Of a DNA stretch of 25,989 bases, positions 2,377 to 18,875 are shown piece after piece. The notes under the pieces were generated by a model. That model searched no databases and was not told the DNA's origin. It was given only the letters and a program-made list of their open reading frames with translations. The number at the start of each line of letters is the position of its first letter. The first letter of the stretch is position 1. The position numbers and the translations under genes were made by a program. This DNA comes from a virus: positions 1 to 25,989 of the IMG/VR virus record IMGVR_UViG_3300021519_000061; one strand, written 5' to 3'.

Positions 2377-2756
2377 CCGCCAAACAATTCCAGAAGCGAA
2401 ACGAAGGATTCCGAACAGAGTACGAATTCCAAAAGGCCCTTGTGTCATGGCTCCGAACAACTCAGAAGCAGGTTGTGAAGGATCGTTTCTTTGCCGTTCC
2501 CAACGCTGCCAGACGTTCTCCAAAGACGGCTGGAATGATGCAAGCGCAGGGGATGAAAGCGGGAGTTCCTGACCTCGTTTTCTACGCTCCTTTAGGCCGT
2601 GTATTATGGCTCGAATTGAAGAACGGCAAGGCGGGAAAGCCAAGTGAATCACAAGTCGAAATGCAAGCCGACCTCTACCACTGCGGGCATATCGTCTGCA
2701 TGGCGCATACAATCGAAGAAGCAAAAGCAACAATCCTCAATTTTTACACAGAATAA
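2373..2756 (+). CDS. VRR-NUC domain nuclease
   Basis: The 127-aa protein is a stand-alone VRR-NUC domain, a PD-(D/E)XK-type fold related to Holliday-junction and flap nucleases (FAN1 carries the same domain). Motifs in order are EFQKALVSWL (E18), VPNAARR, GMKAGVPDLVFYAP (D67), LWLELKNGKAGKP (E81, K83) and SQVEMQADL (Q94), the full catalytic set. Length is typical of phage versions. It sits in the recombination operon, so branch or junction processing of replicating phage DNA is likely. The exact substrate cannot be read from the sequence. Confidence 0.9.
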   Translation: MTAKQFQKRNEGFRTEYEFQKALVSWLRTTQKQVVKDRFFAVPNAARRSPKTAGMMQAQGMKAGVPDLVFYAPLGRVLWLELKNGKAGKPSESQVEMQADLYHCGHIVCMAHTIEEAKATILNFYTE

Positions 2757-2759
2757 TTT

Positions 2760-3170
2760 ATGTCAGACCTCATCAACGCACAAATCGACCTTGCTAAGTT
2801 GCAAGGCGCAGAAATTCGCGAGAAAAACGGAAAGCACTTCGTTATCATCGACCTGTCACAAAGCCGCGTGAAGCATTGGAAGCGCAACGGCGGAACAGAC
2901 TCCGCTTATTGCTCCATCGAAATCAAAGCAAACGACAAGCTCAAGGATGAAAAGACGCACCTCGTAAAGGAGTCGCGAACGAAGGATGAGCGCCAGCAAC
3001 GGCTAGAGCTTCCAATTATTGGCGATGGCCGCGAGTTCAATTTCCAGAAGTCCGACCCTGTGCCAGAGCGTAAGCCAGTGCGCCCTAACGCTCCTAGCGT
3101 ACAGCGTGGGTACGTCGCGCCAGTGGAAGAACTTGGTAACGGAGAAGACGACTCAGAAATCCCTTTTTAG
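2760..3170 (+). CDS. Putative single-stranded DNA-binding protein with SSB-like acidic tip
   Basis: The 136-aa protein ends in GNGEDDSEIPF, very like the C-terminal tip of bacterial SSB (DDDIPF in E. coli), which recruits repair and replication enzymes. The N-terminal 95 residues alternate beta-like segments (KHFVIIDLSQSRV, AYCSIEIKAND, THLVKESRTKDER, LELPIIGDGREFNF), compatible with a compact OB-like domain. A Pro/Arg-rich linker of about 30 residues then leads to the acidic tip. Domain order (fold, flexible linker, acidic tip) copies SSB. It lies right after ERF, YqaJ and VRR-NUC genes, where phages often keep an SSB. I do not see the classical bacterial SSB signature, so the fold assignment is inference. 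Confidence 0.65.
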   Translation: MSDLINAQIDLAKLQGAEIREKNGKHFVIIDLSQSRVKHWKRNGGTDSAYCSIEIKANDKLKDEKTHLVKESRTKDERQQRLELPIIGDGREFNFQKSDPVPERKPVRPNAPSVQRGYVAPVEELGNGEDDSEIPF

Positions 3171-3171
3171 C

Positions 3172-3465
3172 ATGAACCTACCAAAGCTATTACAGCACCT
3201 GTCATTACTCAGTGATAAGTCTATCTCACTTTGCGACCTGAGAGCAATGACCCTAATGGAGAAGGGCCCGATCCACAAAGCGCAGACTCTTTGCGAGACT
3301 TACAAATGGTCAGGCACTAAGTCTTCGCAAATCCTGCGCAGACTTCGCGCTACTGGCTGCATTAAATCGGGCACAGAGCGAATGAGTGAAGGCCGAACCT
3401 ACAGCCTAACCGACGACGGGAAAAAGATTCTTGAAGTCCTACGGAAGACGGGAGGGAAGTCATGA
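3172..3465 (+). CDS. Small winged-helix-like protein, 97 aa
   Basis: The ATG at 3172 is chosen because the frame upstream of it lies inside the previous gene and reads as a shadow. From there the protein is MNLPKLLQHLSLLSDK..., with helices followed by QTLCETYKWSGTKSSQILRRLRATGCIKSGT, then SEGRTYSLTDDGKKILEVL. The pattern of helix, recognition helix, beta wing ending in YSLTDDGKKIL is that of MarR/PadR-like winged helices. It could be a transcription regulator or a replication accessory. It overlaps the next gene by four bases. There is no ribosome-binding sequence before its start, only one base after the SSB-like gene's stop, so re-initiation is likely. Confidence 0.7.
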   Translation: MNLPKLLQHLSLLSDKSISLCDLRAMTLMEKGPIHKAQTLCETYKWSGTKSSQILRRLRATGCIKSGTERMSEGRTYSLTDDGKKILEVLRKTGGKS

Positions 3466-3683
3466 ACGATCTTTTCACCATCGAAGAATCGCCACGTCCT
3501 GCGCTTGAACTGGCGCGGGAGAGGCTGGCGGAGGCTACGGCCAAAATGAACGATTGGCGTCCGCATATCACCGGATTCGAGCGGGCAGACGGAATGCCGA
3601 AGCGCCTTCTCAAAGAGCATTGCGATGCACTGTGGGAAGTGGTGAGAATGGAGCGCGAAGAACTGGAGAAGCGGAAATCGTAG
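3462..3683 (+). CDS. Hypothetical protein, 73 aa
   Basis: Not recognised. The protein is short, charged and mostly helical: an N-terminal MNDLFTIEESPRPALELARERL segment, a central WRPHITGFERADGMPKRLLKEH segment in two turns, and a C-terminal Glu/Arg helix ending in EELEKRKS. There are no cysteines arranged for metal and no membrane segment. A strong GGAGGGAAG sequence precedes the start, one of the better ribosome-binding sites in the window. It is the last gene before the non-coding control region at 3684-3942, so it closes the recombination operon. Confidence 0.7.
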   Translation: MNDLFTIEESPRPALELARERLAEATAKMNDWRPHITGFERADGMPKRLLKEHCDALWEVVRMEREELEKRKS

Positions 3684-3684
3684 T

Positions 3685-3741
3685 TTTGTCAACTTTGTCA
3701 AATCGTACACTTTCCCCAGGGACGAAGTACAAATTTGTCAA
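3685..3741 (+). repeat. TTTGTCAA direct repeats (operator or iteron candidate)
   Basis: TTTGTCAA occurs at 3685-3692, 3694-3701 and 3734-3741; the last two extend to TTTGTCAAAT and are 40 bp apart, near four helical turns. A 10-bp palindrome ACAAATTTGT (3729-3738) overlaps the third copy. The stretch is AT-rich and lies just upstream of a promoter and of the replication genes. It fits a regulator-binding array or an origin-associated array. No regulator can be assigned. Confidence 0.5.
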
Positions 3742-3775
3742 ATAAACTTCAAATATGTCGTATTACACAATGAGC

Positions 3776-3803
3776 TTGCATAGCTCAACAAAACGGCTAT
3801 GAT
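3776..3803 (+). promoter_or_regulatory. Promoter, sigma-70 type, for the replication region
   Basis: TTGCAT (3776-3781) and TATGAT (3798-3803) are separated by 16 bases. Each matches the consensus at four or five of six positions. The -35 element sits inside a small palindrome, TGAGCT-5-AGCTCA (3771-3787), which could bind a repressor. Transcription would begin near 3810, ahead of the structured leader at 3816-3939. Confidence 0.5.
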
Positions 3804-3853
3804 ATGGCCGTGCTGAGCAGTTTGAAGCCTGCTTTTCACCTTACTGAGAAACC

Positions 3854-3922
3854 ATGAAAACTTTCCCGCACTTCACAAGTGACCTCCGCCGTTGTTTCTC
3901 CGGCTGCTTCAAACTCTTGTGA
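3854..3922 (+). CDS. Possible 22-aa leader peptide inside the structured leader
   Basis: An ATG frame of 22 codons (MKTFPHFTSDLRR... to ...GCFKLL) lies between promoter and terminator and overlaps both arms of the terminator stem, ending at 3922. Ribosomes translating it would melt the terminator, as in classical attenuation. It has no good ribosome-binding sequence upstream and no run of one regulatory amino acid, so it may be chance. Confidence 0.2.
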   Translation: MKTFPHFTSDLRRCFSGCFKLL

Positions 3923-3939
3923 AGATGCGGGCTTTTTTT
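3865..3939 (+). terminator. Strong intrinsic terminator with long stem
   Basis: CCCGCA-CTTCACAAG (3865-3879) pairs with CTTGTGAAG-A-TGCGGG (3916-3931): 15 base pairs with a single bulged A, followed by C and seven Ts (3933-3939). A small inner stem GCCG/CGGC (3888-3891, 3901-3904) lies in the loop. It ends four bases before the ATG of the next gene, so read-through or anti-termination would be needed for that gene unless it has another source of transcript. Confidence 0.85.
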
Positions 3940-3942
3940 GCC

Positions 3943-4254
3943 ATGAGAACACCGCTGCTATTCCCGAAAGATGAGATTCCGAAGGGTGGCCCTCGCCATC
4001 ATTCGCAGCTCATCAAAGCCCACAAGATGTGGATTCACGATCTTGGACGTAAAGACCCGTGCCGCTGGATGGGATTCAGTGAAATTCGAGTCCGTAAGGC
4101 ATTGGAAGGTATGTTAGACGGCTCTGAAACCTGTTTCGACATTTACGGGAAGTATTGCCGGTTACTCGATGACATGGGCCTTCTGGTGTCCGCAACGAGC
4201 AAGAATCAGCTTATCCAGGAAATCGCGCAAGGCATCGAACCGCAAGAAGCATAG
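3943..4254 (+). CDS. Hypothetical protein, 103 aa, before the replication initiator
   Basis: Not recognised. I place the start at the ATG at 3943, since the two earlier Mets in frame fall inside the terminator stem. The protein opens MRTPLLFPKDEIPKGGPRHH, has a basic stretch (LIKAHKMWIHDLGRKDPCRW), then IRVRKALEGMLDGSETCFDIYGKYCRLLDDMGLL, which reads as a small helical domain, perhaps winged-helix. It stands three bases before the initiator gene, in the replication operon. A DNA-binding or replication-accessory role is possible but unproven. No ribosome-binding sequence is clear, since the start is in the terminator's tail. Confidence 0.65.
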   Translation: MRTPLLFPKDEIPKGGPRHHSQLIKAHKMWIHDLGRKDPCRWMGFSEIRVRKALEGMLDGSETCFDIYGKYCRLLDDMGLLVSATSKNQLIQEIAQGIEPQEA

Positions 4255-4257
4255 ACA

Positions 4258-4980
4258 ATGGCCCTTTACGTACGCCTTCAAACTTCCTTTTACAGCCACA
4301 AGAAGACCGCCAGACTGCGCGGAAAGCTTGGCGATGATGCATTGTGGCTTGTGCCTCGCTTGTGGGCATACGCTGCCGAATGCCAGCCTGATGGAGATTT
4401 TTCCAGCTATGAGGCTGGAGAGCTTGCGATGCTTCTAGGATACAACAAGGATGCTTGTAGCATGCTTGAAGCATTGCAACAAGCAGGATTCATGGATGGA
4501 ATGGCCATTCACGATTGGAGCGAGCACAACGGCTATCATGAAGTTTTTGCTGATCGCGCCAAAAAAGCGGCGTCTGCGCGTTGGAAAAATCGCGACGAAA
4601 AGAAAGGACAAGACAAGACAAGAAAGGACAAGAAAAGAAAAGAGACAAGCATTGCTTCAAGCATGCTTGAAGCATCAAGCCTTGTTTTCCCAGGTGATTT
4701 CTCTGAATCAAGGAAAGAAACCTTCACTTTGTGGGCAGAATACAAGGCCGAAAGGAAGGAAGTTTACAAGCCTCTTGGGTGGAAAGCATTGCTTACCGAA
4801 TACCAAAAGATGAGTGATGTAGATTTAGCCGCTGCCATTCAGTTCTCAATGGCGAAGGGATATAAAGGCATCTTTGCCGACCAATCGCAACAACTCCCAC
4901 GGGGCATGAAAGCGCAGAACGCAACAACCGATGAAACAGGGGCCGTGTTCTTTACCGGCTTCACCTCCAAACCAGTCTGA
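4258..4980 (+). CDS. Replication initiator / helicase-loader-like protein (lambda O or DnaD/DnaT type)
   Basis: The 240-aa protein has three parts. Residues 1-95 (FYSHKKTARLRGKLGDDALW, WAYAAECQPDGDFSSYEAGEL, LEALQQAGFMDG) look like the winged-helix DNA-binding domain of phage initiators. Residues 98-145 form a very basic low-complexity linker starting DRAKKAASARW. Residues 150-212 (FTLWAEYKAERKE, KALLTEYQKMSDVDLAAAI, MAKGYKGIF) match the C-terminal domain of phage replication proteins thought to contact helicase. It overlaps the DnaB-type helicase start by one base. The linker DNA carries the origin-like repeats described separately. SMLEA occurs twice (residues 68-72 and 135-139) because of a 16-bp DNA repeat. 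Confidence 0.7.
   Translation: MALYVRLQTSFYSHKKTARLRGKLGDDALWLVPRLWAYAAECQPDGDFSSYEAGELAMLLGYNKDACSMLEALQQAGFMDGMAIHDWSEHNGYHEVFADRAKKAASARWKNRDEKKGQDKTRKDKKRKETSIASSMLEASSLVFPGDFSESRKETFTLWAEYKAERKEVYKPLGWKALLTEYQKMSDVDLAAAIQFSMAKGYKGIFADQSQQLPRGMKAQNATTDETGAVFFTGFTSKPV
4459..4675 (+). other. Candidate replication origin inside the initiator gene
   Basis: AGCATGCTTGAAGCAT occurs exactly at 4459-4474 and 4660-4675. The second copy is part of a perfect 22-bp palindrome (4653-4674), whose half is TGCTTCAAGCA. The first copy lies in a near-palindrome (4452-4473) with two changes. Just left of the palindrome is a 61-base tract without T on the + strand (4591-4651), containing AGAAAGGACAAGA twice with a 20-bp period (4601, 4621). 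Binding repeats next to an asymmetric A-rich tract in the linker of the initiator gene is the layout of the lambda origin in gene O. Function is inferred. Confidence 0.5.
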
Positions 4981-6371
4981 TGAGTGATCCCGACGACATC
5001 CCGAACGAATTCGAAGCTATTGCAACGAGCCTCAACCAATCACTTCCAACTGCTGAGGATGCGGAAGTGGGGCTCCTGGAGATTGTAGCATTGCACCCGC
5101 AACGGCTACAACAGGCACGCTCAAGAATCACGCCAGAGGCTTTCTACCACCATCCGCGCCGAATGATGTATGAGCTTTTGCTGGAAATGGCAGATGCAGA
5201 GGAAACAGCGGACACGGTGACAGTGTTTGCCAAGCTTCGCAGTCGCGGAACTCTGGAGAAGGTAAGCCAAAGTCTTGTGGTGGACATCATGACATCCTAC
5301 CCCATCGAAAAGCAGTTTCCCGTTTACCTGGAGATGGTCACTACCGCTTGGACGCTCCGTAAAGCCGTCACAGGCCACGCTAGAGCGATGCTGGCAATAT
5401 TCCGGCATGGGATGATAGGCGGAGGCAAACAAAGCGACGCACGGGCCGTTTTAGCGCAAGCGCAAGAAATCGTGACAAGCTCCATTGAAGGGAATCAGGC
5501 AACCGATGATAGAACGCGATCAATGGACGACTGCGTTTTGGAGCACCTGGACTACATGGAATCGCTTGGAAACGGCTCCATGATCCTTTTCCCGATTGGC
5601 ATCCCGTCTTTCGACAAGCGGGCGCGGGGCGTGGCATGTGATGAGTATTGCCTCATTACCGGACCCACGAAGTCAGGAAAAACCACGCTAGCACAGAAGA
5701 TTTTCAAACTGGCTTCTATCGCGGCAAAGGAGAACCCAAACCTTGGCAAAGGGGCCTACTATTCCGGCGAAGTCTCTCCGCGAACGATCGGAGGCCGCGC
5801 AATTTTCAACACGGGTTATGTGTCGGCGGCAATCGAAAGAACTGGCCTAGCGCTCAGGGAGGATCAAGAGCAGTATCTACACGCCACGGCCCGCGTTCAG
5901 CGTGAGATGGGCGACACGGCAACCGTGATTAATGCCTGCGGGATGGCGATTGAAGAGGTGCTAGCCGACATGCGCCAGAAGTGGGAGACGGGACACAGGC
6001 TCTTTGTGATTGACTACATCGGCAAGTTTTACAGTTCGCGCACCTTCAACAATCGTGAGCGTGAAATCGCTTACATGTCGGGGCGGTTATTTGATTTTTC
6101 CAAGCGACCAGGGAAGCCCGCCGCCGTGATTTGCTTGGCGCAACTCAATGATGATGGGCAAGTGAGAGATTGTCGAGGACTTGAGCATGATTGCGACATG
6201 CATCTGAAAATTGCCCGTGTGTTCAAGCAGGAAAAAGGAAAGGAGCCTGTAGAGATGCCGTCACAACGAAGTCTCATCGTTGAGCGCGGGCGGTCTATCG
6301 AGGCCGGATACGTCATCCCGATCTATTTCGAGGGGTGCCATTACAAATTCGAGGAAGCAACACCCCAATGA
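4980..6371 (+). CDS. Replicative DNA helicase, DnaB family
   Basis: The 463-aa protein is a hexameric RecA-fold helicase of the DnaB type, which unwinds the fork ahead of the polymerase. Residues 25-130 match the helical N-terminal domain (AEVGLLEIVALHPQRL, TPEAFYHHPRRMMYELL). The motor domain starts near 185: Walker A GPTKSGKTT (228-236), H1a SGEVS (E264), Walker B LFVIDYIG (D345), H3 AVICLAQLN (Q388), H4 DCRGLEHDCDMHLKI (397-411) and a C-terminal IVERGRS (433-439) where DnaB has its arginine-finger KxRxG motif. Length is near that of bacterial DnaB. The preceding initiator gene probably loads it. No primase gene is visible nearby, so host primase may be used. Confidence 0.92.
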   Translation: MSDPDDIPNEFEAIATSLNQSLPTAEDAEVGLLEIVALHPQRLQQARSRITPEAFYHHPRRMMYELLLEMADAEETADTVTVFAKLRSRGTLEKVSQSLVVDIMTSYPIEKQFPVYLEMVTTAWTLRKAVTGHARAMLAIFRHGMIGGGKQSDARAVLAQAQEIVTSSIEGNQATDDRTRSMDDCVLEHLDYMESLGNGSMILFPIGIPSFDKRARGVACDEYCLITGPTKSGKTTLAQKIFKLASIAAKENPNLGKGAYYSGEVSPRTIGGRAIFNTGYVSAAIERTGLALREDQEQYLHATARVQREMGDTATVINACGMAIEEVLADMRQKWETGHRLFVIDYIGKFYSSRTFNNREREIAYMSGRLFDFSKRPGKPAAVICLAQLNDDGQVRDCRGLEHDCDMHLKIARVFKQEKGKEPVEMPSQRSLIVERGRSIEAGYVIPIYFEGCHYKFEEATPQ

Positions 6372-11993: not shown

Positions 11994-13844
11994 ATGACCA
12001 TTGAAGACCTACCAGCCTTCCTTGCAGAGATAGGGCTCAAGCGAGCTACGGAGCATCATCCACGCATTGCTCAATTCAGGGATACGCTTGAAGCGATCAA
12101 GCCGGGATTGCATGATAGCCTCCTATTCTCTGGAGACATGGAGAAGTGTCAGGCGTTGATTGATGGCTACCAGAAGCGCCAGGAAGAGATAGAGCAAGAA
12201 GAGTCCGACCCTTTGCGGTACGGGTTCAGGGTGCCTGGGTCATACGTTATTGACAAGGAAATTGAACGTATTCGAGAAAAGCCGAATGTAATTCCATTTA
12301 TTCTAAACCTGGGAGGCAATAGATCGGGCAAAACTGATGACGCCGCCCGTAGAATCATGGAATTGATGTGCTCAAGGCCAAATGTGAGCGTGGCTATTCT
12401 TTGCCCTTCGCAAGCACAGGCCCGCGATGTGGCTATGGCATACTTGTGGCGCTATTTCCCGCCAGAGTGGAAAGAGGAGGAAACCGGGAAGAAAAGACAT
12501 GGGGCCAAAGGCAGTTATTCATACAACGAGAAAACAGGCTTCACGGATGACAAGTTTACACTTCCAAACGGATCAAAGTGCATATTCAAATTCTATTTAG
12601 ATGGCAATGTGACGGCATGGGAGGGCACTACATACGACGCAGTATGGGCGGATGAAGAAGTAACGCAAGATTGGGTTGATGCTGCTCAGGTGCGCCTCTC
12701 TGACAGAACGGGACTATTGCTTTTAACGTTTACGCCAATCAAAGGCATGACGCCTGTAATCAGCTCTATTCAGGCCAATTGCTCAGTTGTTCAACGAAGG
12801 GACGGAGGATCAGATGTGATTCCGCGCAAAGGTCTGGAAAAATTGCCATACCTGGAGCGATCAAACTCGGCTTCTGTTGTTTACTTTTGGCCGCAAGACA
12901 ATCCTTACGGTGGATGTAAAACCAATGAAAACACTGCAATTGATAAAAAGTGGCCGTTGTCACTTATTAAATGTCGATTGTATGGAATTGCCTACATGGT
13001 CAAGGACGCGGCATTCCCAACGTTCTCACTTGAAGCCCATAGCTTAACACCGTCAAAAGAGTTCATCGAGAAGCTTCATGTGGATGCCAAGAAGGGAATT
13101 AAGCCGACCTGGTATCATGTAGTCGATCCATGCTCAGGCCGTCCGTTCTTTATGAAGTGGTACATGGTTCTTCCTGGACTTGGGCAACCTCGCGCTATTT
13201 GCATGAGGGAATGGCCACAACAGGAAGACTATATACCGGGATGGGGAGACCCCGGGGAATGGGCAGTTCCAAGCAAAGACGGAAGACTAAAGGACGGTGA
13301 ACGAGGATCAGCGCAGGAAGTGAAAGGATTCACGGTGAACTTCATGCATTCCGAAATGGATCGGATAGAACATGAATTGGCTGTTGAATTCGAGGGCGCA
13401 GAAGATCCTGAAGCGATGATTGAGCCTTATGTACGCTTGATGGACTCGCGAGGCGGAAGCGTGTCGCAAATGGCGGGAGATTCCAATGATACGCTTATTG
13501 ATGAGTTCTACAAACTTCGCGATGGAGACAAGCCAGCGCGCGATTTCGTAAAGGCCAGTGGGCAGAACCTGAATCCTTCTGGTCATCGCAGTACAGACGG
13601 AATCCACCTTATCAACGACTGGCTAGGCTACAGGCAAGATGAACCATTGAGTGCGCTGAACGAGCCGCGATTGCGCTACCACATCCGTTGCACTAATAGC
13701 CTGTGGGCTTTGAAGAACTTCACAGGCGCGGACGGAAACGAGGGCGCGTGCAAAGATCCAATCGACGTTGACCATTACTTTGTCCGAGACGATCCACAAT
13801 ACGTGGATGGCAAGGGTTTTATTATCGACAATGGAAGGAGATAG
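11994..13844 (+). CDS. terL: Terminase large subunit
   Basis: The 616-aa protein is the packaging motor: an ATPase that threads DNA through the portal and a nuclease that cuts the concatemer. Walker A is LGGNRSGKTDD (G107-T114). Walker B is TTYDAVWADEEV with D220, E221 and E222. The coupling motif is LLLLTFTPIKG (241-251). The C-terminal RNase H-like nuclease starts with WYHVVDPCSGRPFFMKW, whose Asp fits the first metal ligand, and ends near KDPIDVDHYFVRDDPQY with further acidic ligands. The 105 residues before Walker A are a longer N-terminal extension than in many TerL proteins. It is followed by a small HTH-like gene and the portal. Confidence 0.93.
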   Translation: MTIEDLPAFLAEIGLKRATEHHPRIAQFRDTLEAIKPGLHDSLLFSGDMEKCQALIDGYQKRQEEIEQEESDPLRYGFRVPGSYVIDKEIERIREKPNVIPFILNLGGNRSGKTDDAARRIMELMCSRPNVSVAILCPSQAQARDVAMAYLWRYFPPEWKEEETGKKRHGAKGSYSYNEKTGFTDDKFTLPNGSKCIFKFYLDGNVTAWEGTTYDAVWADEEVTQDWVDAAQVRLSDRTGLLLLTFTPIKGMTPVISSIQANCSVVQRRDGGSDVIPRKGLEKLPYLERSNSASVVYFWPQDNPYGGCKTNENTAIDKKWPLSLIKCRLYGIAYMVKDAAFPTFSLEAHSLTPSKEFIEKLHVDAKKGIKPTWYHVVDPCSGRPFFMKWYMVLPGLGQPRAICMREWPQQEDYIPGWGDPGEWAVPSKDGRLKDGERGSAQEVKGFTVNFMHSEMDRIEHELAVEFEGAEDPEAMIEPYVRLMDSRGGSVSQMAGDSNDTLIDEFYKLRDGDKPARDFVKASGQNLNPSGHRSTDGIHLINDWLGYRQDEPLSALNEPRLRYHIRCTNSLWALKNFTGADGNEGACKDPIDVDHYFVRDDPQYVDGKGFIIDNGRR

Positions 13845-13847
13845 ACA

Positions 13848-14081
13848 ATGATTCCACTACCAACACACCCGCCAGCAAAACGAAAGCACATTGCGCGAAC
13901 ATTTGGGCGCGGTGAAGTTTTGCGGCTTTGCAAAGAGGCCGGATATGGCAGAGATGCGGCACAAATGCTATTTTTTAACGTTGGATGCGCGGCTAGAATT
14001 CTGTTGCCTCCTTGTAAGTATGCGCGTTATAGTCGCGAAGTAGTACTATCAGTCTTGGGGCTAGACCAAAGCAATCTATGA
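13848..14081 (+). CDS. Small HTH-like protein between terminase and portal, 77 aa
   Basis: The 77-aa protein has a basic N-terminus (PPAKRKHIARTFGRGEVLRL) and then a pattern GEVLRLCKEAGYGRDAAQML, ending ARYSREVVLSVLGL, which looks like a helix-turn-helix with a closing SREVVLxVLG helix as in excisionase-like and MerR-like DNA-binding proteins. A clean AAGGAG ribosome-binding sequence precedes its ATG, one of the best in the window. Its stop overlaps the portal start. Such a gene here could be a regulator of the late operon or a packaging helper. Confidence 0.65.
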   Translation: MIPLPTHPPAKRKHIARTFGRGEVLRLCKEAGYGRDAAQMLFFNVGCAARILLPPCKYARYSREVVLSVLGLDQSNL

Positions 14082-16345
14082 CCGACAATTCTTCACGAAG
14101 CACGCGCCGCCTTTACAAGGTGAACAGCGATTCCACGCCCGACGTTAAAGCCGCAATCCAAGAATTGACGGAAAACATGTCGGACCTTCAATACTGGATT
14201 GGAGAAGCGCAACAGGATGAGCGAGTTTTACTAGCTGAATGGGATGGGCAGGACTCACGAACAGGCCGCAAATGGGACGCTATCTATAGGAAGCCTGTAG
14301 CGCCGTGGGATGGATCAAGCGATACGGTTGTGCGAGATGCCGACGCCGCAAGTGATGAGATTGTGATGTTGATGGTCAGTGCATTCATGACGGCAACGCC
14401 TAGCGCCATCCAGCAGAACGCAGGGACGGCTAATGCTGCCGGAAAGGTCGGAACGCTGCTGAAGTACGAGGTGCGCCAACGGATGCGGCGGAATCTCTGG
14501 CAAGAACTGAACTTCTTTGCCAATTGGGGCGTTGATTACGGGCATTCCGTGATGGAAATTGGATGGAAACGCGAGTTCACTACTGGAAACGGCAAGATTT
14601 CAGCGGAAGAACTGGCTGCGTGGATCGTGCAATCGGCACAACCGCAACAAGACGGGCAACAAATCGCGCCTCAAATCATTGAGAATGTAGCGGAAGAAAT
14701 TAACGCAGCGCTGGCGGATAAGGTCCGATGGAGCCAAGTCATTGCCATGATTCAGGGTAAATACCCTCTATTGAGTGATAAGAGAGCGCGTAAAATAGCT
14801 GCTCAACTAGCCAAGGATGGTGGAGAGGTAGAGTTTCGCCTACCAATCGAGAAGCCTGGACAGCCATTTGCAAGAGCGTTCTGCCCTGGGATTGACTTTT
14901 TCAGACCATGGCGAAACGATGTAATCGGCAAATCACCATTTCGAGCCGTAATTATCCCATATTCTGAGTCTGAAATATGGGCGAAAATCAACACGGACGG
15001 ATGGGATGAAGATTTTTGCGAGCGTCTAATCAGTCTAGGGCCACAGAAAGCGATCAATTCAGGCGCAATTGACCAGACTGGCGTTCCACACACCATGGGA
15101 CGCCCGATCTTTGACGCGAACGTTGCCAAAGCGAATTCACGCAGGAATCAGGAAATGCACTCCTACTATGAAGTGGTTCATATGTGGATTGAATGCGTTG
15201 ATGAAGACCATTTCCCCGCGCTGTATGAAGTAATTTTTCACCCTGCTATTGGCGATCATAACAGGGAGCAACTATTTGCTGTCAACCGCCTTGTTGATGA
15301 CTACGCAGAAGGCGGGAAATTCGTTGAATTCCGCCGTGAGTACAAATCCCGTTCACCGTGGGAATCGCGAGGCGTTCCACGCTTGCTTACGCATCCTCAA
15401 CTTGAGCGCAAGTACATGCGTGACGGGCGAATCAACCGAAACGAAATGGCGACGAATCCGCCAATTCGTACCACGCGCAGGAATTCAGCAGGCAAGCCTG
15501 AACGTCTTGGTATGCGTCCCGGCGCTGTCATGATGGAGGAAAGGGGGCAGGAATCCGGCTTTGTTGCACCTCCCGTATTCGATGAGGGTAGTGTTGCGGA
15601 AGAAGAAATGATCATGCGCGACAACGCCAACCTTTGCGGACTGTTCCACAAAGATGTGTTGCCAGCTAAAACAACCATGCACCAACAGTACATGGTTTGG
15701 AATTTCTTGGAGTCATGCCGGGAAATCTTGATCAAGGTCTTGCAGTTTGACCAACAGTACATGGATCCGATTAACGTTTCCCGCGTTATCGGCGGCGGCG
15801 ATCTTCCGTTTGCAGTGACTCGCGAGGAAATCGCAGGGCAATTCGATGTTCAACTGACAATGGATGTTCGCATGTCCAATGTTGAATACGTTCAGGCAAT
15901 CTGGCAGGTGATGATGGAGGGCATTAACGCTGATAGGGCTGGTGCAATCGACACGACAACGGCTATTCGCTGGTTGTATCAATCTGTCGATCCGGTTCTT
16001 GCTGACATGTGTATCTCCGATCCGCAGGCAGTGGCGCAGGATGAAGCAGACGATGAGCGGCGGGAAGTTGCCAACGCTGTGATTGGCATTTCCACAACTC
16101 CAAAGAAGGCAGGGAATCCACAATCCCGACTTGATGCGCTTCATCAAGAAATGACGACGAATCCAACTGTCTCGCAGGCGTATCAGTCGAATCCACGCAC
16201 TCAGGAAATTCTCACGGCCCGCGCCAAAACATGGATGCAAGCGCTACAGCAAAGACGAAATGCCAGCACGGGCGCGACTGGATACACACCGCCTGATTTC
16301 ATGGAATCTGGCCCAAAAGCTAACTTAACGCCAGCGCAACAATGA
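14078..16345 (+). CDS. Portal protein (large, 755 aa)
   Basis: Position right after the large terminase, size and composition fit the portal, the dodecameric ring at one capsid vertex through which DNA enters and leaves. N-terminal YWIGEAQQDERVLLAEWDGQ, KPVAPWDGSSDTVVRDADAA (the PWxGSSD segment is typical of large portals) and a central wing with FARAFCPGIDFFRPWRNDVI support it. Near 480-590 lie conserved-looking MIMRDNANLCGLFHKDVLPA and QYMVWNFLESCREILIKVLQ. The Gln-rich C-terminal 100 residues may form the barrel or internal tail. At 755 aa it is larger than siphovirus portals and near P22's 725 aa. No protease fusion is seen. Confidence 0.82.
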   Translation: MTDNSSRSTRRLYKVNSDSTPDVKAAIQELTENMSDLQYWIGEAQQDERVLLAEWDGQDSRTGRKWDAIYRKPVAPWDGSSDTVVRDADAASDEIVMLMVSAFMTATPSAIQQNAGTANAAGKVGTLLKYEVRQRMRRNLWQELNFFANWGVDYGHSVMEIGWKREFTTGNGKISAEELAAWIVQSAQPQQDGQQIAPQIIENVAEEINAALADKVRWSQVIAMIQGKYPLLSDKRARKIAAQLAKDGGEVEFRLPIEKPGQPFARAFCPGIDFFRPWRNDVIGKSPFRAVIIPYSESEIWAKINTDGWDEDFCERLISLGPQKAINSGAIDQTGVPHTMGRPIFDANVAKANSRRNQEMHSYYEVVHMWIECVDEDHFPALYEVIFHPAIGDHNREQLFAVNRLVDDYAEGGKFVEFRREYKSRSPWESRGVPRLLTHPQLERKYMRDGRINRNEMATNPPIRTTRRNSAGKPERLGMRPGAVMMEERGQESGFVAPPVFDEGSVAEEEMIMRDNANLCGLFHKDVLPAKTTMHQQYMVWNFLESCREILIKVLQFDQQYMDPINVSRVIGGGDLPFAVTREEIAGQFDVQLTMDVRMSNVEYVQAIWQVMMEGINADRAGAIDTTTAIRWLYQSVDPVLADMCISDPQAVAQDEADDERREVANAVIGISTTPKKAGNPQSRLDALHQEMTTNPTVSQAYQSNPRTQEILTARAKTWMQALQQRRNASTGATGYTPPDFMESGPKANLTPAQQ

Positions 16346-16641
16346 GTGAACATTCCGAAAAGTTACTTGTAGAGACAATCATGGAGGGCGGCTATATGTC
16401 GCTAGCAGATTGCCAGCGAGAATTGCAAGGTTGTGCTACTCATCCGCACATCAAGGCAGTTATCAGTTTGATTGAGCGACGTATTTCTATTGCTCGCGAG
16501 GATTCGGAAATACTAGGGGCAACGCATCAAATGCGCGATGAGAGTTGCGGTGCTGCGCGATATTTGCGCGATCTAAGGACAGAATTGAACGGCATGTTGT
16601 ATAAAGCGCCAGAACCGACTACAGAACCAAAGGTAAATTGA
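16342..16641 (+). CDS. Hypothetical protein, 99 aa, between portal and scaffold
   Basis: Not recognised. It is an all-helical, charged protein (EKLLVETIMEGGYMSLADCQ, HPHIKAVISLIERRISIARE, RYLRDLRTELNGMLYKAPEP), with three cysteines but no metal pattern. Start overlaps the portal stop by four bases (ATGA). Genes at this place in other phages encode head-completion or scaffold-assisting proteins, but no homology is visible. A 92-base gap with a weak promoter follows. Confidence 0.68.
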   Translation: MSEHSEKLLVETIMEGGYMSLADCQRELQGCATHPHIKAVISLIERRISIAREDSEILGATHQMRDESCGAARYLRDLRTELNGMLYKAPEPTTEPKVN

Positions 16642-16647
16642 GCGGAT

Positions 16648-16675
16648 TTGTACGGATTCGTACATCGTTTACATT
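16648..16675 (+). promoter_or_regulatory. Weak promoter candidate before scaffold and capsid genes
   Basis: TTGTAC (16648-16653), 16 bases, TACATT (16670-16675), overlapping a small palindrome TGTACG-GATT-CGTACA (16649-16664). The leader to the ATG at 16734 would be about 50 bases. Hexamer matches are modest. An extra promoter before the capsid genes would make sense for their high demand, but this is tentative. Confidence 0.3.
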
Positions 16676-16733
16676 GTTTCGATAGTTATTGGAAGTCTTC
16701 ATTATAGCACGGCGTGTTATCGCTGATGTTATT

Positions 16734-17852
16734 ATGGGAAGACCATCAAAAACTGCTAGTCCAACACCAACGGCCCAAACGGCACCAGCCGATAAGCCTA
16801 AGATCGTAGTTGCTTACGGTCCTGCCAAGAGTTCGGCAGACAACAGCCCTCAGCGTTCGGAATCTGAACTTCTAAAGTCGTTTGAATCTTTGCCTGGAAT
16901 TATGCCAGGTATGGAGGATGAACCGCCCGCAGAAGCAAAGAAAGAGAATCCGAGCGAACGCCCAAAAACTCAAGAAATCGAAGGCGACGACGATACGGAG
17001 AATCAGCCAAAATCCAAGAAGGAGACAAAGCCAAAGGAAACTAAGGCATTACTTCCCGACGAGGATGAGGAAGATGACTCCGAGGAATCTGAAGACGACG
17101 ATGAAGCAGAGCCAGAAGGCAAAGTTGAAGACAAGAAAATTGCCGAAAAGCTTTTCAAAGCACGCGAAAAGAAGCGGGAGTTAAAGGCAAAGGTTGCCGC
17201 CGCAGAAGCTCGCGCCGCTGAATTGGAAAGTAAGCTAAGTGGAGTCCTAACGAATACCGCGCCAATTGGCGAGTTGTTCACTGGAGTCTATGAAGGCGTG
17301 AAGACAACGGAAGACCTCGACAGGGTGCGCGATCACTTACAAAATTGGGTTGATTACCTGGAAGATAATTCCGATGGCTACATGAACGGCGAAACGGAAG
17401 TAGAAGCCAAAGAAGCCAAAGCCCAATTGCGAGCGTATCGGAATGAACTGAAACGCTCCAGTAAGATCGAAAGCTTCTTTGAAAACCGGGAGAAGTCGGC
17501 AGCGAAAGCCAAAGAACTTTATCCATGGGTTTCTAACGTTTCGAGCAAACGGCATGATCTTGTTTTGGACCTAGCTAAAGAATTTCCAGAAGTGTCACGA
17601 TCCGCTCATTCTTCCCTTCTCTTGGGAAGGCTCAGCATCGCAAAGCTTGTGGAATCTGGCGAATATACCCTTGTCAAAAAAGGCACTGTTACGGCAGCGC
17701 CAGGCAAGGAAAAAGCTTCACCGAAAGTAACGCGCCAAGAACCAATTGAGCAAGCTCAAGAACAATCGCCAATCCAACGGCAGCGGCAACGCCCGCCAAC
17801 CGCGCAGGATTTGGAAGAACGCTTTATGAGCCTTCTAGGGAGCAGTCAATAA
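16734..17852 (+). CDS. Capsid scaffolding protein (probable)
   Basis: I use the ATG at 16734 (372 aa); the longer frame needs a TTG start. The protein begins MGRPSKTASPTPTAQTAPAD, has a long disordered acidic/Lys-rich region (residues about 75-130, with DEDEEDDSEESEDDDEAEPE), then a strong coiled coil (KLFKAREKKRELKAKVAAAE, followed by ARAAELESKLSG), a helical part with two NYLED-like Asp-rich turns, and a C-terminal QDLEERFMSLLGSSQ helix. Acidic, helical, coiled-coil proteins between portal and major capsid genes are typically scaffolds that guide procapsid assembly and then leave. No catalytic triad for a protease is apparent. Confidence 0.72.
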   Translation: MGRPSKTASPTPTAQTAPADKPKIVVAYGPAKSSADNSPQRSESELLKSFESLPGIMPGMEDEPPAEAKKENPSERPKTQEIEGDDDTENQPKSKKETKPKETKALLPDEDEEDDSEESEDDDEAEPEGKVEDKKIAEKLFKAREKKRELKAKVAAAEARAAELESKLSGVLTNTAPIGELFTGVYEGVKTTEDLDRVRDHLQNWVDYLEDNSDGYMNGETEVEAKEAKAQLRAYRNELKRSSKIESFFENREKSAAKAKELYPWVSNVSSKRHDLVLDLAKEFPEVSRSAHSSLLLGRLSIAKLVESGEYTLVKKGTVTAAPGKEKASPKVTRQEPIEQAQEQSPIQRQRQRPPTAQDLEERFMSLLGSSQ

Positions 17853-17876
17853 ACAAGCAACTAACCACCCCATTTT

Positions 17877-18875
17877 ATGCCCCAGACATTTGCAAGGACT
17901 CAGGTAGGTGTACGCGAAGATCTCGCCGACCTAATCTCACTCATTGACCAGAAAACCACGCCACTTCTTACTAGCGCACCGCGAGGCAAGGAACTCGTGA
18001 ACGTTCGTTTCGATTGGCAAGCCGATAGCTACGATCCGCCCGACACTTCCGGCGTTATTGACGGTTCCGACGTTTCGCAGACGCAGGACGCCGCCAAGAA
18101 TCGCGCACGCCTTTATGGCATGTGCCAGCGTCAATGGCAGACTCCAAAGGTCTCCAACTTTACCGACATCACCGACGTTGCAGGCGTTGGGCGCGGTAAA
18201 GAGATGGCTCGCGCTATCATGAAGTGCTCCACGCAGCTTAAGCGCTCTGTGGAAGCTACGTTGTGTTCCGACAACTCCAGTCAGGAAGACAACGGCACTG
18301 TGGAATACAAGACTCGCGGTCTTGGTGAATGGATCAAGGCGACGGCTCAAAGCCATTTGCCTGTCGATTCAAACTTCCTCACGCCATCGGCTTCTATCGA
18401 CACTACGGCTACGGGTTCGCTTGCGATCTCGAATATCAATGCGGTACTTCAAAGTCAGTACAATCAGACGGGCTCGGTTAATACCTATACCCTGCTTGTT
18501 GGGCAGGCAATCAAAGCCGCATTCACTGAGTTGGTGTCTTACCAAGGCACTCGCGGCGGTAGTAGCTCCATCCTGAAAACGGAACTTGGCTCGGCTAACG
18601 CCTGGGAACACAACATTCAGTCGTTTACTGGCGACTTTGGAACCTATGATCTTGTTCTCTCCAACTGGCTTGGATGGAACAATACAACCAAGGTTCCAAA
18701 CCTGTTCCGAGGCTACGCCTTGGACATGGATATGCTGGAACTGCGCATGAACACGCCTTGGCGAGTGACTAAGCTTCCAAACCTTGGCGGCGGTGAGCGT
18801 GCTATCGTTGAAGTTGTTTATGGCCTTATGGTCAAGAATCCTCTCGGTTTGGCTAAATTCGCCGCTTCGAGCTAG
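17877..18875 (+). CDS. Major capsid protein (DUF5309 / SU10-like)
   Basis: The 332-aa protein follows the HK97-fold family seen in phages with DUF5309/SU10-type capsids. The N-terminal FARTQVGVREDLADLISLID then TTPLLTSAPRGKELVNVRFD is the arm leading to a VRFDWQADSYDPP segment; SGVIDGSDVSQTQDAAKNRA and CQRQWQTPKVSNFTDITDVA continue the pattern, and a long helix (GRGKEMARAIMKCSTQLKRS then VEATLCSD) forms the spine. The C-terminal half has the expected strands (ERAIVEVVYGLMVKNPLGLA). It follows the scaffold gene. The start ATG comes after CCCCATTTT and has no ribosome-binding sequence, strange for the most abundant virion protein. Confidence 0.85.
   Translation: MPQTFARTQVGVREDLADLISLIDQKTTPLLTSAPRGKELVNVRFDWQADSYDPPDTSGVIDGSDVSQTQDAAKNRARLYGMCQRQWQTPKVSNFTDITDVAGVGRGKEMARAIMKCSTQLKRSVEATLCSDNSSQEDNGTVEYKTRGLGEWIKATAQSHLPVDSNFLTPSASIDTTATGSLAISNINAVLQSQYNQTGSVNTYTLLVGQAIKAAFTELVSYQGTRGGSSSILKTELGSANAWEHNIQSFTGDFGTYDLVLSNWLGWNNTTKVPNLFRGYALDMDMLELRMNTPWRVTKLPNLGGGERAIVEVVYGLMVKNPLGLAKFAASS

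Follow-up and report, generated by a model that had tools for sequence, protein, structure and literature searches.

A probable replication origin of tandem iteron units and a short-repeat tract within the initiator gene of a phage

Results

The initiator gene and its surroundings

The window, by which we mean the whole 25,989-bp stretch of virus DNA analysed (IMG/VR record IMGVR_UViG_3300021519_000061), carries on its plus strand a replication initiator gene (4258–4980; 240 aa) adjoined by the gene for a DnaB-type replicative helicase (4980–6371, plus strand). The helicase is identified by Pfam and PHROG matches (DnaB_C, 7.4e-15; DnaB, 2.4e-13; phrog_19, 1.9e-34). The initiator matches the PHROG profile phrog_9474 (replication initiation protein; E=1.3e-13), a match found in 30 of 30 aligned members, and its C-terminal half (residues 112–213) weakly matches the O-like phrog_678 (1.2e-4). 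In the AlphaFold model, residues 1–90 form a confident N-terminal domain followed by a long helix, with the rest poorly predicted, giving a layout of N-terminal domain (1–90), long helix plus linker, and weakly O-like C-terminal half. The best fold neighbours of the N-terminal domain were RepA_N and DnaD N-terminal domains, at weak scores (Z 5 to 6.4); the RepA_N-like matches lay at Z 6.4, 6.3 and 5.6, with an unrelated one also at 5.6. No Pfam family, RepA_N included, matched the initiator at E up to 0.1, plain Foldseek of the model against the PDB gave nothing with E below 0.001, and a profile search of PDB sequences yielded only matches resembling low-complexity chance. Used as sole query, neither initiator nor helicase found a relative among viral contigs, nor did the initiator among genome contigs; Rfam and tRNA scans found nothing.

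Ahead of the two genes, a leader at 3854–3940 has a long predicted hairpin (CCCGCacTTCACAAG ... CTTGTGAAGatGCGGGC; about −30 kcal/mol) and then a T run, overlaps a 22-codon open frame (MKTFPHFTSDLRRCFSGCFKLL) and, judged from its predicted fold, looks like a terminator or attenuator preceding the replication genes. Elsewhere in the window (11994–18875), identity to Phage C75C1, the closest phage with a name, is only ~26–30% for the terminase, portal and SU10-like capsid proteins, which places the window's phage far from the named ones in the collection.

Two iteron clusters and a T-free tract in the initiator coding sequence

The preliminary description of this DNA had proposed a lambda-like origin built into the initiator gene, drawing on a palindrome, a 16-bp repeat with a near-palindrome at its first copy, and a T-free tract. 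The 22-bp palindrome (TGCTTCAAGCATGCTTGAAGCA; 4653–4674) is indeed perfect, and no other palindrome of at least 14 bp occurs in the window. Each half (TGCTTCAAGCA) forms an odd palindrome of 11 nt in its own right (TGCTT-S-AAGCA), so that the element consists of two adjacent 11-bp units in tandem; exact TGCTTSAAGCA was found nowhere else in the window, and an exact search of viral contigs for the palindrome gave no match. The 16-bp repeat (AGCATGCTTGAAGCAT) is likewise exact, its copies at 4459–4474 (plus strand) and 4660–4675 lying 201 bp apart in frame and both encoding SMLEA, and the near-palindrome at the first copy (4452–4474) is 91% identical to 4653–4675. These elements belong to two clusters. 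Cluster 1 (4430–4485), within the codons of the DNA-binding domain, comprises five units in an 11-bp register, TGCTTCTAGGA (4430), TACAACAAGGA (4441), TGCTTGTAGCA (4452), TGCTTGAAGCA (4463) and TGCAACAAGCA (4475), broken once by the extra base that shifts the last of them. Cluster 2 (4642–4685, minus strand) contains the palindrome. A reading of the palindrome as a transcription terminator was rejected because its units recur as direct repeats and only one weak stem (4665–4680) is predicted, no more than shuffles give.

The T-free tract (4591–4651; at 61 nt the window's longest) adjoins the iteron units and is a candidate unwinding element. The 20-bp repeat described for it exists but is not its base period: the basic repeat of the tract (periodic core 4597–4643) is 5 bp, with a self-match of 71% at lag 5, and lags 10 and 20 are multiples of it. 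On the minus strand the order is iterons, GCAATGC (4655–4649) and a pyrimidine 5-bp tract. That T-rich strand bears 23 TnnT motifs in the tract and the plus strand none, and DnaD reads TnnT pairs on one strand at oriC (PMC10201434); as a DnaD-like signal, however, this bias is suggestive only, since a T-free plus strand already implies it.

The elements had been placed mostly in the charged linker of the protein. This holds for the tract and cluster 2, but not for cluster 1, which falls in the conserved DNA-binding domain (residues 58–76), where its SMLEAL aligns with a conserved helix. The related proposal that SMLEA is a by-product of selection on DNA is accordingly tenable for the linker copy alone, whereas the first copy is under both constraints.

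The repeats exceed what the protein requires

As a null model, synonymous codons were shuffled inside the initiator gene with protein and codon usage kept. Self-similarity as high as that observed was reached by 0 of 300 shuffles, both at lags 11 and 22 (4428–4474) and at lags 5, 10 and 20 (4597–4643). A palindrome of at least 22 bp appeared in 16 of 5000 shuffles, an exact repeat as long as 16 bp in 56, a T-free length of 61 nt in 10 and the gene's count of TGC-N5-GCA in 2. Thus, the coding sequence contains tandem and dyad repeats beyond protein need, and peptide repeats do not account for the periods of 11 and 5. A recent tandem duplication would likewise yield an excess over such shuffles; since 11 and 5 are not multiples of three, however, gain of a single unit breaks the reading frame.

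An array and a tract recur in related initiator genes

A profile of distant homologues yielded 80 loci in IMG/VR. Of the non-redundant initiator genes, 54 of 57 contained one or more significant short-lag repeats, mostly in linker codons, whereas few of 184 neighbouring genes did. A joint test for a 5–8-bp tract and a 10–12-bp array no more than 60 bp apart, applied to the 49 initiators left by a stricter redundancy cut, was positive in 34 of them versus 2 of 184 neighbouring genes (Fisher p=1e-26), with thresholds set after inspection of the data and with no hold-out set, since the loci from another profile scan were the same. Of the controls, the iterons annotated in lambda and the origin region of P22 were recovered by the lag test; the rep gene of TP901-1, a known origin carrier, gave no signal and no 11-bp periodicity, so that lack of signal does not argue against an origin.

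Iteron sequence varies from phage to phage, and many units are dyad-symmetric (TGCGGACCGCA, TGCTAGTAGCA, GTCCCCGGGAC, GTTCATGAAC). The window's nearest homologues have TGC-N5-GCA in common as a core, its copies spaced 11 or 12 bp apart, with a density of 1.77 per kb in initiators versus 0.41 in flanks; among relatives it occurs in all three frames, with 37 of 54 occurrences in one. In these homologues the array usually closes with GCARTGC, after which come 6-bp repeats of the CCGTCT type, and the window's minus strand has a like order, TGCTTCAAGCA TGCTTGAAGCA A TGCTTGTCTC TTTTC TTTTC TTGTC. An array 3′ of the tract was seen in two initiators only, the window's being one. Because the window's minus strand matches the order on the relatives' coding strand, we lean towards an origin module inverted relative to the gene, and put it no higher because the pattern at the junction was picked out post hoc; alternatively, the tract may merely be flanked by two clusters, its polarity having no meaning. 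Cluster 1 has no general counterpart among the relatives. Tracts in many of them are GC-rich, for example (CCGTCT)n, and so the tract is not generally an A-rich element. At one locus (L121, 2989–4250), the initiator frame ends at 112 aa and the iteron-like and short repeats lie in the next open frame, as would fit a split initiator, a frameshift or a sequencing error.

Synonymous sites within the relatives' arrays are mostly frozen

Varied synonymous codons among relatives had been named beforehand as the outcome that would speak against selection on the DNA. In six groups of close relatives, which share history between groups and do not include the window's gene, array codons proved mostly frozen rather than varied: codons for conserved amino acids were unchanged in 94 of 105 cases in arrays versus 416 of 629 upstream (sums over the six groups). 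The direction was alike in 6 of 6 groups, three of them individually significant (p=6e-5, 0.001 and 0.014). Homologues close to the window's own gene did not turn up, and for the window the evidence from codon drift is therefore indirect. The repeats are thus very probably kept by selection on DNA rather than protein, as far as comparison of sequences can tell.

A related phage with a different initiator

Of the phages compared, L003 is the most like the window's (terminase 61%, portal 62% and capsid 56% identical), yet its initiator is of the DUF1376 type and differs from the window's. Initiator and helicase have been swapped there (2433–4537), the helicase being 27% identical over part of its length, and the new initiator gene has its own iterons: 11-bp units in two clusters ~200 bp apart, with a T-free tract adjoining the second. 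L003 also has, at 1090–2061, an open frame that contains a long stretch of low-complexity repeat (ADAYASASADAY...) and may encode a fast-changing repeat protein. Iteron-like units and AACCAAT-type 6–8-bp tracts occur repeatedly in linker codons of the DUF1376 phages L175–L184. Among DUF1376 genes, a 6–8-bp tract, usually AACCAAT-like, was present in all 11 tested, and 4 were positive in the joint array test. DUF1376 is listed in Pfam as of unknown function; from this layout, it is probably a replication initiator family in these phages.

Discussion

We consider it highly probable that the region 4430–4685 is a phage replication origin embedded in the initiator gene. Several lines of evidence argue for this: codon shuffles lack the periodicities, the combination of array and tract recurs in relatives, the window's nearest homologues share the TGC-N5-GCA core, and array codons of relatives are mostly frozen. 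The protein, moreover, belongs to a replication-initiation family and its gene is followed by a DnaB gene, the lag test picks up the iterons of lambda and P22's origin region, and a similar arrangement is seen in the DUF1376 initiator genes of L003 and other phages. Comparison with relatives hence lends strong support to the earlier proposal of an origin inside the gene with selection acting on its DNA. The GC-skew check suggested at the time showed no clear, informative switch at the region, although the record is a fragment.

In the mechanism that we propose, the initiator N-terminal domain would bind the 11-bp dyad units of clusters 1 and 2, with protomers aligned on one face of the helix because each unit spans about one helical turn. 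The resulting complex would bend or strain the DNA and open the strand-biased 5-bp tract between the clusters; the exposed strand would be held by the C-terminal part of the initiator, and the DnaB-type helicase that the phage itself encodes in the adjacent gene would be loaded onto it. The linker peptide would then be mostly a by-product of the DNA sequence.

Other explanations account for part of these data. Operators typically have dyad-symmetric tandem sites, and initiators often regulate their own synthesis, so that the initiator or another phage regulator might bind within the gene for transcription control, with the origin elsewhere. We regard this as unlikely, given that the sites lie 170–430 bp into the gene, where the coding strand has no promoter-like site, and that an operator needs no short-repeat tract, yet relatives have one together with the sites. 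Still less probable is a pattern without function, in which simple repeats pile up by slippage in a disordered, loosely constrained linker. Certain tracts, (CCGTCT)n among them, are dipeptide repeats that leave the frame intact, and their copy number differs among close relatives, as slippage would have it; the 11- and 5-bp units, on the other hand, cannot be gained singly in frame, the array units have diverged while keeping their dyad cores, synonymous sites in the relatives' arrays are mostly frozen, and a second cluster lies 200 bp away in both the window and L003.

A twofold function of the peptide SMLEA itself would fit the in-frame spacing of the two 16-bp copies, and the segment in the DNA-binding domain does align with a conserved helix. 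But SMLEA is not conserved in the linkers of relatives, whereas TGC-N5-GCA is, in all three frames, and the 11-bp register and palindrome are lost in shuffles that preserve the protein; a repeat kept at the protein level is, to our minds, the most improbable explanation of those weighed here.

If the region is the embedded origin that we favour, the rule that emerges, one-helical-turn iterons adjoining a 5–8-bp tract in the linker codons of an initiator, would allow probable origins to be located in many phages not yet characterised, and the layout points to a function for DUF1376. An array inside the initiator gene also offers a reason for initiator and origin to move as one cassette, as between L003 and the window. 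Tracts as GC-rich as (CCGTCT)n can hardly open by low melting temperature alone, and how such origins open becomes a direct question. One tentative and rather doubtful answer, by analogy with DnaA-trios, is that the 5–8-bp tract serves not as a low-melting element but as a strand-specific, sequence-read ruler: once the iterons have loaded the initiator, protomers or the loader would step repeat by repeat along one exposed strand. The initiator subfamily would determine the repeat length: 7 for most DUF1376 phages, 6 for the TGC class and 5 for other phages, the window's among them. If true, unwinding elements of this sort would be widespread among phages, often GC-rich, and common to otherwise dissimilar initiator families.

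Comparison with known origins

Lambda and Stx phages have their origin within the initiator gene (PMC7466680). As in lambda O, P22 gene 18 and Stx phages, dyad iterons with an adjoining tract lie in the window between the codons for the DNA-binding and C-terminal parts, and, as in P22, the next replication gene encodes a DnaB-like helicase. The claim of a lambda-like origin thus stands for its plan, iterons beside a tract inside the initiator gene with a replication gene coming next, but not for membership: annotated lambda iterons are 18 bp long at 20–24-bp steps whereas the window's units are 11 bp, outside the lambda O type, the N-terminal domain is of another family (phrog_9474), the relatives' tracts consist of 5–8-bp repeats that are often GC-rich and not simply AT-rich, and in the window a second cluster falls within the DNA-binding domain.

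In plasmid pSK41, the origin lies in the middle of rep, encodes a dispensable linker and is bound by the N-terminal domain (PMC5703833). The window resembles this RepA_N system in having its probable origin in the initiator gene, and RepA_N is among the best fold neighbours of its N-terminal domain. It differs in lacking a RepA_N Pfam match, the fold similarity being weak, in pairing the initiator with its own DnaB-type helicase, and in its 5-bp repeat tract beside 11-bp units, whereas RepA_N repeats converge on a poly-A tract. Replisome organisers also bind direct repeats in their own genes in TP901-1/Tuc2009 (rep; PMC8965321) and in SPP1 (oriL in gene 38; PMC6316719), although TP901-1 rep, unlike the window, has no 11-bp periodicity in the lag test. 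The bacterial DnaA-trios and DnaD element may offer a parallel, as short strand-specific motifs beside duplex-binding sites that are read single-stranded during opening and helicase loading (PMC10201434); their period is 3 versus 5–8 in the phage tracts, and the proteins are different.

An origin in the initiator gene is therefore of a known kind, and by analogy the window's most likely works like those of lambda, SPP1, TP901-1 and pSK41. In the open-access literature, subscription papers lying outside this coverage, we found no description of the layout seen here, and what appears to be new is an 11–12-bp dyad iteron coupled to a 5–8-bp tract, often GC-rich, recurring across dissimilar phage initiators.
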